Both the position numbers and the translations under genes were made by a program. A stretch of 32,774 nt of DNA from contig JAAFJM010000025.1 in assembly GCA_013298895.1 (NCBI GenBank), forward strand, positions 1 to 32,774, read 5' to 3'. Below, piece by piece: positions 24,620-27,686 of the stretch. This DNA is from Bacteroidota bacterium. Its GTDB lineage: Bacteria; Bacteroidota; Bacteroidia; UKL13-3. How positions within the stretch are numbered: position 1 is the stretch's first letter; each line of letters starts with the position of its first letter. The notes under the pieces were generated by a model. The model did not search any database and had not been told where the DNA came from. It worked only from the letters and a program-made list of their open reading frames with translations.

Positions 24620-24691
24620 TTAAACAATATTTTAATTTGCAATATTTAGCATTAATTATGCAAAAGCAATATTAAAAATTTATTTTTACCC

Positions 24692-24713
24692 AACCATAAC
24701 CATATACCATCGT
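24692..24713 (+). promoter_or_regulatory. Candidate ECF-type promoter before the sigma factor gene
   Basis: AACC at 24692-24695 and CGT at 24711-24713 are separated by 15 bases, the AAC/CGT layout common in ECF promoters. The stretch holds three ACCAT words (24694-24698, 24700 onward and 24706-24710). The distance to the sigma ATG is 61 bases. It would allow autoregulation; this is inference. Confidence 0.35.
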
Positions 24714-24774
24714 ATTAAGGTAAAAAATAACTAATTATTTAATTGCCTAACGAAAATAAATTTACTTAACTTTA

Positions 24775-25353
24775 ATGAAAATAGAGCTAGATCAGCTTAT
24801 AAGTTTATGTTTAAAACAAGATCGCAAGGCCGAAAGTGCTTTGTATAAATATTGTTTTACTAAACTTATGCCTATTTGCCATAAGTATTATAAAAGTAAA
24901 GACGATACCTTAGCACAAATAAATAAAGCGTTTTTAAAAATATTGAATAATTTAAGCAGTTTTGATGGCAATAAATCATTTGATGCATGGATAAAAACAA
25001 TAATGGTGAATACTATTATTGATGAATTTAGGGTAAATAAAAAACGTAATGCCTTGTTTATAGATAACAACAATGAACAAGTAGACCTTGATTTCCATCC
25101 ATTCAATTTAAACGAGGCTGAGGCTAAATTAACTGCTGCCGATATTCAGATTCATATTCAGCAATTACCTGAATCGAGTAAAATGGTATTTAACCTTTTT
25201 ACAGTTGATGGTTATAACCACAAAGAAATTGGTGAAATGTTGGGAATTAATGAAGGAACAAGCAAATGGCATTTAAATAATGCCAGAAAAATTTTAAAGA
25301 AAAAACTGATTGAAATGTTTCCTCAACTTAAAGAAAGGGAAAAACAAGCATGA
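24775..25353 (+). CDS. ECF-type RNA polymerase sigma factor
   Basis: The 192-residue protein has sigma-2 (about 15-88: SALYKYCFTKLMPICHKYY, KSFDAWIKTIMVNTIIDEFR) and sigma-4 (about 120-175: LPESSKMVFNLFTVDGYNHK, EIGEMLGINEGTSKWHLNNA). No sigma-3 is present, as expected for the extracytoplasmic-function class. The HTH in sigma-4 is well preserved. Its stop overlaps the start of the next gene (ATGA at 25350-25353), so the sigma factor and its probable anti-sigma protein are translated together. The regulon probably includes the operon itself. Confidence 0.95.
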   Translation: MKIELDQLISLCLKQDRKAESALYKYCFTKLMPICHKYYKSKDDTLAQINKAFLKILNNLSSFDGNKSFDAWIKTIMVNTIIDEFRVNKKRNALFIDNNNEQVDLDFHPFNLNEAEAKLTAADIQIHIQQLPESSKMVFNLFTVDGYNHKEIGEMLGINEGTSKWHLNNARKILKKKLIEMFPQLKEREKQA

Positions 25354-26567
25354 CAGATAACGAATTATATAATTTAATTAAAAACAAACTCAATAACCAA
25401 ACTTTTGAGTATGAAGATTCTTATTGGCAACAGGCCGAAAAGATGATTGATGCTCAGCGTTTTGAAAATAAAAAATTGGTTTGGTATAAATCGGCATTTT
25501 ATGTTGCTATAACTTCTGTTTTTGCATTATTAGGATGGTTTTTAGTTGAAAATAATAAAATCACCTCTCATCAAACAGCTATCAATACCATTACTGAAAA
25601 TGCTCAAATGCTGGAACTTGAATTAAAAAGTTCAGCTATTTACAGTCAACCTAAAGCTACTGAAGCTAATAAATCTGTTAACTCAAATAGTATTAATAGT
25701 AAGGAAAATTCAATATTAGTTGAATCAAATGATAAAAATAATGACACTAAAATTATAAGAACAGCTAAAGATAAATTACAAAACATTGAAACTTTTTTGG
25801 GTGATGAATTATCAATTAAAAATGAAGCTATTACTACTGAAAATATTGTTATTAATAACGAAGTTATGGTGGATGTTTTGCAAGGTAAAAACGCACAAAA
25901 AATTAGTTTAAATTTATTAGCTCCATCTTTCGATTTTACTCAAATTGATTTTATTAAATCGCCAATTAATTATAAAAACAGTTCAAAATTAAACAGTTAT
26001 TTTAACGCAAGTTTGGAAGCAGGAACCAATTCGTTTAATAATACATTTTCGACTAATTCATTTGGTTATTATGTTGGAGGTAGATTGTATTTTGATTTTG
26101 GTAAATTCTCGTTAAATACCAATTTGCATTACGAAAATATAAATCAAAATTTGGCTCCTCGTGAAATTATAAATAAAACATACGATTTTACATCAAATAC
26201 TACTAAAACTGTTATTAAAAACCAATCAATTGATTATGCTATTATTGGATTAAATGCTATGTATCCTGTTTACAAAAACCATAGCATTGGTATAGGTTTT
26301 CAATATGCTCGATTGATTAAAACCAACGATTTGTTTACCACCCAAAATTTAGAAAACAATACCATCACAAATAAAAGTACCAATAATTACAGTAATGGAA
26401 TTAATAAATCTGAAATTCAATTTACTTTAAATTACCAATTTAGATTTACCAAACATTTAGCTGTAAATGCTGCCTATGTTTATGGTTTAAATGATGTTTC
26501 AACCAATGAAACGGCTAATTATAAAAACAGAGGAGTTAAATTAGGTTTACAATACATTATAAAATAA
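25350..26567 (+). CDS. Predicted dual-membrane anti-sigma factor (anti-sigma head fused to an outer-membrane barrel)
   Basis: The 405-residue protein has four parts: a cytoplasmic head (1-44; LYNLIKNKLNNQTFEYEDSY, similar in character to anti-sigma domains), one membrane helix (46-66; YKSAFYVAITSVFALLGWFL), a long polar linker rich in Ser, Asn, Lys and Thr (about 67-200), and a C-terminal barrel (about 213-405) of alternating amphipathic strands ending GVKLGLQYIIK. It has no cleavable signal. If the barrel is inserted in the outer membrane, one chain spans the whole envelope and can pass a surface signal to the co-translated sigma factor. This is the plan of the Dma (dual membrane-spanning anti-sigma) proteins described in Bacteroides. 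Topology is inferred. Confidence 0.83.
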   Translation: MTDNELYNLIKNKLNNQTFEYEDSYWQQAEKMIDAQRFENKKLVWYKSAFYVAITSVFALLGWFLVENNKITSHQTAINTITENAQMLELELKSSAIYSQPKATEANKSVNSNSINSKENSILVESNDKNNDTKIIRTAKDKLQNIETFLGDELSIKNEAITTENIVINNEVMVDVLQGKNAQKISLNLLAPSFDFTQIDFIKSPINYKNSSKLNSYFNASLEAGTNSFNNTFSTNSFGYYVGGRLYFDFGKFSLNTNLHYENINQNLAPREIINKTYDFTSNTTKTVIKNQSIDYAIIGLNAMYPVYKNHSIGIGFQYARLIKTNDLFTTQNLENNTITNKSTNNYSNGINKSEIQFTLNYQFRFTKHLAVNAAYVYGLNDVSTNETANYKNRGVKLGLQYIIK

Positions 26568-26573
26568 TCTTTC

Positions 26574-27686
26574 ATGCGTTCAATAATATATTTCATTATC
26601 AGTTTTGCTATTTTAACAACAGGTTGTAAAACCAAAGAAGATCCAATTGGATATATTGGCACTGCTGAGTTTTATGCCAAAGGAATAATCAATAATAAAT
26701 CTGTTTTAATTGAAGCTGGCAACAATAATTTCATTATGCAAACTGAAAATGGAAAAGACAGTTTAAATATAAATACTTACACAGGTTCATTGGTTAGCAC
26801 ATGTGCTAATTGCAAGGAAAAATTAAGTATTACAATTCGTAATTTTGAAATAGGAAATACTAGCAATTGGCTTTTAGATTCAGTATTTAAGCAAGGCATT
26901 ATTTATAGTTATTACAAAGATGAATTGCCACCAAGTGCCTATAAAATTATTTTAAAAAATGAATCCGTAGGTATTGGTAATGTAGATTATAAATGGGATT
27001 TTGGTGATGGGTTTGGCAGTTTATCAACTGATCCTGAATTTGTATTTAAAACGGATGGTAAGAAAAACATAAAACTAACGGCAGATTTTAAAGATGTTAA
27101 TTGCTCTTCAACCATTGAAACACCTGTATACATAGATGGTAACAACTTAAATGGCTATATCGACTATACTTATCAAAACATAGGTAATAATGTATTTAGA
27201 TGCAATGTTATCAATGCAGATTCAAGTACGCACAAATTTGTTTGGCAATATTTAAATCAAACCAATTCATTTCCGAAAGGCAATTATTTTGATTTACCTG
27301 CATTTGCTAATGAAGGGGTATATAAAGTAGATTTATTAGCCATAAATAAAAGTACAAATGATACCACACTTGTATCAAAAAATTTAGCTACTGCCGCAAA
27401 TACGAATTGTGTTTCAAATTTTTCATACAGTTTAATACCTATTCGAGATACACTTCAGTTTAATAAGGTAATAATTGATTATACTGCTCCTGATGGAACT
27501 TATTATTCTTCAAAGTATTTAGAGCAGTTTACAGGTTTTGTTATTCAAGAAATTACAAATTACAAAGACATGGTAACTGTTAAAAAAACAATTAAAGTAA
27601 AGGTTTTATTTACTTGCAATGTTAGTGATGGAACCACCACCATTGAGTTAAAAGACATCAATGCTGTGTTTGCATTTTCTTATTAA
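26574..27686 (+). CDS. PKD-domain lipoprotein, third gene of the sigma operon
   Basis: The 370-residue protein starts with a lipoprotein signal (SFAILTTGC, lipidated C18). Residues about 25-115 are a beta-rich domain with a CANCKEK pair (C77, C80). A PKD-type domain follows with WDFGDG at 141-146, then a second immunoglobulin-like region and a C-terminal strand-rich part (about 280-370). It carries no catalytic motif and is likely on the outer membrane or exposed. It is six bases after the anti-sigma stop, so it is part of the same operon and is a candidate partner or ligand for the barrel. No homologous function is known to me. Confidence 0.82.
   Translation: MRSIIYFIISFAILTTGCKTKEDPIGYIGTAEFYAKGIINNKSVLIEAGNNNFIMQTENGKDSLNINTYTGSLVSTCANCKEKLSITIRNFEIGNTSNWLLDSVFKQGIIYSYYKDELPPSAYKIILKNESVGIGNVDYKWDFGDGFGSLSTDPEFVFKTDGKKNIKLTADFKDVNCSSTIETPVYIDGNNLNGYIDYTYQNIGNNVFRCNVINADSSTHKFVWQYLNQTNSFPKGNYFDLPAFANEGVYKVDLLAINKSTNDTTLVSKNLATAANTNCVSNFSYSLIPIRDTLQFNKVIIDYTAPDGTYYSSKYLEQFTGFVIQEITNYKDMVTVKKTIKVKVLFTCNVSDGTTTIELKDINAVFAFSY

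Follow-up and report, generated by a model that had tools for sequence, protein, structure and literature searches.

Can the state of the outer surface of a Bacteroidota cell be passed to a promoter through a single protein? The question is raised by a three-gene locus in contig JAAFJM010000025.1 of a Bacteroidota bacterium (GenBank assembly GCA_013298895.1), of which the whole analysed stretch, 32,774 nucleotides (nt), is here called the window. The locus encodes, in this order, an extracytoplasmic function (ECF) sigma factor, an anti-sigma protein of the Dma type and a lipoprotein. Dma proteins are defined by an N-terminal anti-sigma head, one transmembrane helix, a disordered tether and a C-terminal barrel in one chain, and the introduction of PMC13088901 describes them as spanning from the outer membrane to the cytosol; the class offers a direct route by which the state of the outer surface could reach promoters. 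With a probability of about 0.6, in our estimate, the three genes form a Dma-type sigma switch that acts across the envelope, controls its own expression and has a third component dedicated to it; its targets would be the operon itself and surface proteins exported by the type IX secretion system (T9SS). If this is true, the state of the outer surface is linked directly to gene control. The evidence is computational: the order of the genes, the domains of their products, the fold of the barrel, the close linkage of the lipoprotein gene, a promoter motif conserved among operons and an enrichment of predicted targets.

Operon, predicted promoter and the linked lipoprotein

The positions of the three open reading frames (ORFs) were confirmed, all on the + strand, and a candidate promoter precedes them:

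24688..24716, + strand: predicted autoregulatory ECF promoter (two-box motif, score 15.8)
24775..25353, + strand: ECF sigma factor, 192 amino acids (aa) (Pfam and NCBIfam superfamily matches; kept in order before the Dma-like gene)
25350..26567, + strand: Dma-type dual-membrane-spanning anti-sigma protein, 405 aa (model, fold search, profile match to Dma2 orthologues)
26574..27686, + strand: Dma-associated lipoprotein, 370 aa, Cys18 (lipobox; family in this operon context wherever the context is readable)

As a previous reading of the sequence alone had it, the stop of the sigma gene and the start of gene 2 share the four bases ATGA, at 25350-25353, and a PKD lipoprotein gene follows after a gap of 6 nt; its product has a lipobox Cys at residue 18 and a PKD_4 match over the Pfam cut-off at residues 136-172. 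The first product matched Sigma70_r4_2 (40.5 bits) and Sigma70_r2 (32.6 bits) of Pfam, both over cut-off, while the best NCBIfam subfamily, TIGR02985, stayed below cut-off with 75 of 126.4 bits. The same genome encodes 12 other sigma factors.

The lipoprotein family was traced with a profile of its N-domain alone (A8), because the full-length profile was dominated by PKD matches elsewhere. The order to which the window belongs gave 17 matches in 15 of 64 genomes, every one directly behind a Dma-like ORF. The class gave 83 matches in 71 of 395 genomes, and the context of all was read: 81 lay directly behind a Dma-like gene, one was a tandem second copy and one stood at a contig end. Among 78 newly read loci, 77 had the lipoprotein directly behind a Dma-like ORF; the other (L226), at a contig end, was left out of the operon counts. 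L270 and L279 belong to a single operon in which the lipoprotein gene is duplicated, so that these 77 loci make up 76 distinct operons, and the genome search that the earlier reading had called for thus recovered the three-gene order in 76 operons besides the window's own. A sigma ORF lay upstream of the Dma-like ORF in 77/77 loci, at a gap of at most 85 nt in 75, of 238 nt in L281 and of 321 nt in L295 (which had been counted as lacking a sigma under a 250-nt gap limit); the commonest junction was the four-base overlap, at 31/77 loci. The proposal of a third partner is strongly supported by this gene order, and the lipoprotein is best described as a dedicated component tied to the sigma-Dma operon.

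Searches from the other two genes gave a wider picture. The Dma-like protein of the window matched in 15 of 58 genomes, including its own and all nine others of the genus, and all matched loci but L022 and L014 showed the three genes in the order of the window. The L022 match is a chance porin; at L014 the contig begins 86 nt before gene 2, and the sigma gene is therefore out of view. When the best 80 of at least 582 loci found with the sigma alignment were taken, a Dma-profile match at E < 0.05 was present in 65 and the lipoprotein in 26; these 80 loci came from Saprospiraceae, Saprospirales, Flavobacteriales, Crocinitomicaceae, Fluviicola, Phaeodactylibacter, unplaced Bacteroidetes and others. 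At a Mucilaginibacter locus (L121) the third gene encodes a YceI-like exported protein, and at L127 and L153 a transglycosylase SLT protein.

The promoter motif, CCCAACC-N15/16-CGTA, precedes the sigma gene at 59/87 operons. In the window the −35 box CCCAACC occupies 24689-24695 and the −10 box CGTA 24711-24714, with a spacer of 15 and 58 nt left before the ATG of the sigma gene. The simple pattern CAAC-N17-CGT occurs in 46 of the 87 upstream regions against 0.35 expected. The promoter model, consisting of ACCCAACCTTT and TTCGTATA, was fitted on the same upstream regions that it scores; it gave more than 7 in 59/87, with a 10-base gap in 52 of the 59, compared with 0 or 1 region in shuffled sets and 1 in the reverse complement. 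Near-identical regions were kept in this set, in which 85 of the 87 differ in the last 100 nt. Autoregulation seems to be general to this sigma group, because variants of the motif precede related sigmas with other partners (GGCAACC...CGTG in Mucilaginibacter, TGCAACC...CGTC in Flavobacterium). Second copies of the system in G007 and G005 (L024 and L025) lie directly behind a PKD-protein gene whose product has a T9SS-like C-terminus by eye, and their upstream region is without the motif. It is also missing at L091, a Phaeodactylibacter luteus locus that carries all three genes.

The lipoprotein itself was modelled with mean predicted local distance difference test (pLDDT) 82.2 and predicted template modelling score (pTM) 0.54, and was divided as follows:

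26643..26918, + strand: N-domain, residues 24-115, CxxC at 77-80 (kept in the PKD-less L023; profile A8)
26979..27089, + strand: PKD domain match, residues 136-172 (Pfam PF18911 over cut-off)
27150..27401, + strand: second Ig-like (PKD/FN3-like) domain, residues 193-276 (VIA Z up to 9.7)
27408..27683, + strand: C-domain, residues 279-370 (conserved across the family)

The second Ig-like domain matched PrtV PKD1 (4l9d) with a modest VIA Z of 9.1. The PKD domains are the variable middle of the protein: they are absent in L023 and L094, where the N- and C-domains remain. With the lipoprotein export signal taken as C-x-K-(D/E)2 (PMC5080379), 5/75 family members carried it and 22/75 carried C-x-K-(D/E), a weak test of surface exposure.

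A predicted two-membrane anti-sigma protein

Searched by itself, the product of gene 2 matched nothing in Pfam or NCBIfam at E up to 1, and the best E in a sequence search against solved structures was 0.21. Its anatomy was read from hydropathy and from an AlphaFold model built from a 26-row alignment (mean pLDDT 70.8, pTM 0.50):

25350..25475, + strand: cytoplasmic anti-sigma head, residues about 1-42 (helices in the model)
25476..25547, + strand: inner-membrane helix, residues about 43-66 (hydropathy; helix 23-68 in the model)
25557..25985, + strand: disordered linker, presumably periplasmic, residues 70-212 (pLDDT under 50; composition)
25998..26564, + strand: outer-membrane beta-barrel, residues about 217-405 (VIA/OmpA match; PF13568 in relatives)

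The model has helices at 3-16 and 23-68 and barrel strands at 218-403, mostly with pLDDT above 90, while residues 70-212 fall under 50. The best 19-residue Kyte-Doolittle window scores 1.97 at residue 48, and windows starting before residue 25 or after 75 reach at most 0.7. The head, single helix, polar linker and barrel of the earlier description therefore stand, with the correction that the linker has 143 rather than about 130 residues; 59% of them are N, S, T, K, E, D or Q. The barrel that had been predicted for residues 213-405 is present, so that the outcome named in advance as refuting, a model with no barrel in the C-terminal half, did not come about. It superposes on OmpA (1qjp) with VIA Z 17.0 and a root-mean-square deviation of 2.7 over 135 residues, the top Foldseek structures are OmpA, Ail and NspA, and the outer-membrane barrel family PF13568 was matched in 15 of 26 aligned members, the window protein not being among them. 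Trp26 of the head is nearly invariant (at least 90% of 24 heads), and head and barrel profiles match one and the same gene in 77/77 loci read.

The gene adjoins that of its ECF sigma factor, it encodes all four parts in one chain, and it is related in sequence to the described Dma proteins. A search with DUF4943, the third-gene family of the dma2 operon, gave matches in 7 of 295 genomes; at two of the loci (L173 and L174) the gene order read from ORFs fits the published operon, and their products are taken as Dma2 orthologues from that fit with PMC13088901, not from a named B. thetaiotaomicron sequence. At L175 and L176, found by the same search, a dma2-like gene order was not shown. The window-family hidden Markov model (HMM) matched the Dma2 orthologue of L173 at E 8.5e-6. 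In hhalign the single best local match was to the orthologue's barrel with alignment A5 (97.9%), and to its head and helix with alignment A1 (93.7%). Because the profiles match Dma2 orthologues both on the head and on the barrel, gene 2 probably encodes a divergent representative of the already known Dma family, as the sequence-only reading had proposed. Alignment A5 was made without L087 and L099, and the head alignment without L130. No count was taken from the full-length Dma profile across the phylum, because plain porins and barrel-less heads are mixed in its matches.

Two variants of this anatomy were seen among relatives. By eye, the anti-sigma head is repeated ahead of the membrane helix in the Dma-like proteins of L087 (4552-6261), L096, L099, L147, L157 and L163, with four heads in that of Fluviicola sp. 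(L087); such a protein might bind several sigma molecules at a time. At eight Flavobacterium loci (L133, L148, L150, L156, L158, L159, L162 and L164) the gene after the sigma gene encodes a head-plus-helix protein of 222-246 aa in which a barrel match is absent (one was scanned by Pfam), and a gene for a separate exported protein comes next; this arrangement is possibly a split form of the two-membrane anti-sigma.

Predicted targets of the sigma factor

Within the genus, the tight pattern CCCAACY-N15/16-CGTAT has twelve matches in ten genomes. Seven are at the operon; another, G007:C149, stands at a contig end and is identical in sequence to the operon sites of G001 and G002. A further three lie in front of genes for exported proteins of about 1330-1390 aa that form one family (in two cases the start codon is 340 and 359 nt away), and one lies in front of a gene for an unrelated, apparently exported protein. 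The family, first met through four intergenic matches of a looser promoter pattern, has varying N-terminal tips on a shared body and matches in 10/10 genomes of the genus; the T9SS tail PF18962 and the Ig-like PF16403 were present in all four full-length members scanned. A site scoring over 7 lies within 400 nt upstream in 16 of the 21 members with a 5' end. When the four members that had led to the family were left out, the count was 12/17, against 1/86 control upstream regions and 0/420 shuffles (Fisher p 5e-11 for 12/17 against 1/86, a generous value since some members are orthologous). Within one genome the bodies are alike and the tips differ (L389, L390, L391, L394, L395 and contig ends in G000, G003 and G009); many copies with similar bodies end at contig breaks, which suggests that the repeats are kept alike by recombination.

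Outside the genus, 12 operon-bearing genomes of six families were used, chosen mostly for strong operon sites. The pattern CCCAACCTT-N13/14-CGTR matched 37 times in them, compared with 3 times for the reversed control. Eleven matches are the operon promoter and one is a second copy beside the operon in G512. When the other 25 sites were read, an ORF of at least 110 aa lay behind 21, these being 20 genes; none lay behind the sites at L434, L444 and L449. The T9SS type A sorting domain TIGR04183 was found over cut-off in 16 of the 19 downstream proteins scanned, a 133-aa GTG ORF (L438) having been left out of the scan. The three without it are L437, L445, whose C-terminus lies past the contig end, and L448, which is apparently cytoplasmic. 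Against an assumed gene share of 10% or 15%, 16/19 has p of about 7e-14 or 4e-11. T9SS cargo genes are enriched behind the same motif in related genomes; as targets they are predictions from the motif. Several of them have, by eye, PKD-like repeats as in the lipoprotein. The sites at 172 and 401 of L434 (G512) each precede one of two tandem, near-identical tiny ORFs, so that each ORF, which reads like a short membrane peptide, has its own copy of the motif.

Mechanism, alternatives and known systems

The preferred reading may be put as a sequence of steps. The anti-sigma head would hold the ECF sigma factor in the cytoplasm, on a chain presumed to run via the inner-membrane helix and the disordered periplasmic tether into an OmpA-like outer-membrane barrel. 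The lipoprotein, probably anchored in the outer membrane, would work together with the barrel in sensing or modulating the condition of the outer membrane or surface. A change there would free the sigma factor, which would then transcribe its own operon and T9SS-exported surface proteins, many of them with PKD or Ig-like domains. Of these steps, the binding of head and sigma, the contact of lipoprotein and barrel, the nature of the signal and the reading of T9SS-gene promoters by this sigma are what we infer. A more specific version, which we hold only tentatively and would on balance not expect, has the PKD lipoprotein monitoring the T9SS-exported surface layer: missing or misassembled cargo would alter its contact with the barrel, the tether would relay this, and the freed sigma would make more cargo. 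If true, a single protein in both membranes would close a homeostatic feedback between the cell surface and the promoter.

Several observations weigh against this account. The motif is missing from 28 of the 87 operon upstream regions, and the operon holds the only tight match of the window's own genome. In the ten genomes of the genus, the twelve tight matches compare with 5 for the reversed control, and the looser pattern gave no overall excess over control; the window's own genome has 13 other matches of it, 12 within ORFs of at least 100 aa (either strand) and one in a space between such ORFs, where no larger gene begins downstream. Five of the 21 surface-family members lack a site over 7, and of two truncated members in the window's own genome one scores 7.3 (L376) and the other −4.0 (L368). 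T9SS genes are also common in the 12 operon-bearing genomes, in which 78 to 150 sorting domains were found among the 150 candidates scored per genome. The second Dma2 orthologue, L174, was matched weakly by the window-family HMM (E 0.064). Finally, co-divergence at 71 of the 77 loci, short or duplicate ones being dropped, singles out no contact between barrel and lipoprotein: it is not specific, because the partial r of 0.42 between barrel and lipoprotein N-domain given sigma is accompanied by one of 0.46 between sigma and lipoprotein C-domain given barrel.

How far the lipoprotein and the T9SS genes belong to the switch can be judged against two rivals. The lipoprotein may be an output of the sigma only, a co-transcribed surface product with no part in signalling; its gene sits behind the autoregulated promoter, PKD-like repeats recur in several predicted targets elsewhere, and deletion of dma2 in B. 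thetaiotaomicron strongly raises the expression of the genes that follow it, which are dispensable for vesiculation (PMC13088901). This is possible but rather unlikely, for the predicted targets are scattered and variable, whereas the lipoprotein was never found away from the sigma-Dma pair among the readable contexts of the 83 class matches, which suggests a dedicated function. Somewhat less probable is that the T9SS-gene promoters are read by another ECF sigma sharing the motif, this operon controlling itself only. The related core CAACC...CGT does precede related sigma genes with other partners, some genomes have two or three such operons, and the operon is the only tight site in the window's own genome. 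However, 11 of the 12 genomes outside the genus have the tight motif at this operon, and most of its remaining sites there belong to T9SS genes; of the 12 other sigmas of the window's own genome the eight that were scored upstream all gave 2.4 or lower.

Two further rivals concern gene 2. Its product could be processed, so that an ordinary outer-membrane barrel is released from an inner-membrane anti-sigma half and nothing spans both membranes; separate halves may be workable because the eight Flavobacterium loci have a barrel-less head-plus-helix protein. We think this improbable, given that head and barrel are encoded by the same gene at all 77 loci and that the published class is described as reaching from outer membrane to cytosol (PMC13088901, introduction). 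The other refuting outcome named beforehand, a mis-assigned start codon on what is only an ordinary porin gene, was rejected and has almost no probability left: nothing beyond the barrel itself speaks for it, a conserved head precedes the membrane helix in relatives, and the window protein has no signal-peptide-like hydrophobic stretch directly before the barrel.

The preferred reading, a Dma-type switch with a third component, has counterparts among known systems. In FecA-FecR-FecI cell-surface signalling an outer-membrane barrel likewise passes a surface signal to an ECF sigma, but its barrel and its anti-sigma are two different proteins, and it relies on TonB-dependent transport. In Porphyromonas gingivalis, PorXY-SigP/PorA also ties an ECF sigma to the T9SS, with PorA, a protein with a T9SS C-terminal domain, as the proposed relay of a surface signal (PMC7712824). 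Unlike the window's operon, PorXY-SigP uses a two-component system and no barrel anti-sigma, and it regulates genes for the T9SS machinery, not for cargo.

The nearest relatives are the Dma systems themselves, of which Dma1/Das1 with NigD1 is the founding member, as cited in PMC13088901. The class, its operon logic and the upregulation of neighbouring genes are already published there, and the dma2 operon likewise runs from sigma to Dma to a third gene; calling the window's operon new was therefore too strong. What is new here is the lipoprotein family tied to the operon, the promoter motif and the predicted T9SS cargo targets: no lipoprotein partner, promoter or T9SS link of a two-membrane anti-sigma was found in the literature searched, outside which most subscription journals lie. 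With a co-travelling third component, a promoter readable by eye and predicted exported targets, signal, partner and output become testable.

The closest comparison is with Dma2/Das2 of Bacteroides thetaiotaomicron (BT_1558/BT_1559, Dma family, ECF21), where, as in the window, the sigma adjoins a head-helix-tether-barrel protein. The operon, according to PMC13088901, is das2, dma2, BT_1557 (DUF4943), BT_1556 (DUF4858) and BT_1555, the last likened to enoyl-ACP reductases and nitronate monooxygenases. A sigma-Dma-third gene order is common to both, and at the orthologous loci L173 and L174 the product of the third gene looks like a lipoprotein. This gene, unlike that of the window, is DUF4943: the window lipoprotein had no Pfam match besides PKD at E up to 1, so none to DUF4943 (PF16301), and because the DUF4943 products of L173 and L174 show a lipobox by eye and yet are not matched by the lipN and lipC profiles, the sigma-Dma-lipoprotein order is common to both operon types while the lipoprotein families are unrelated. 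The two orthologous loci also differ from the window in having no CAACC motif before their sigma genes; what they have in common by eye is a pair of boxes, TTGCAGCA and GCGTCTAA, spaced as in a promoter. The published output of Dma2/Das2 is outer-membrane vesicle production and polysaccharide utilization loci (PMC13088901), whereas the predicted output of the window's operon is T9SS surface proteins.

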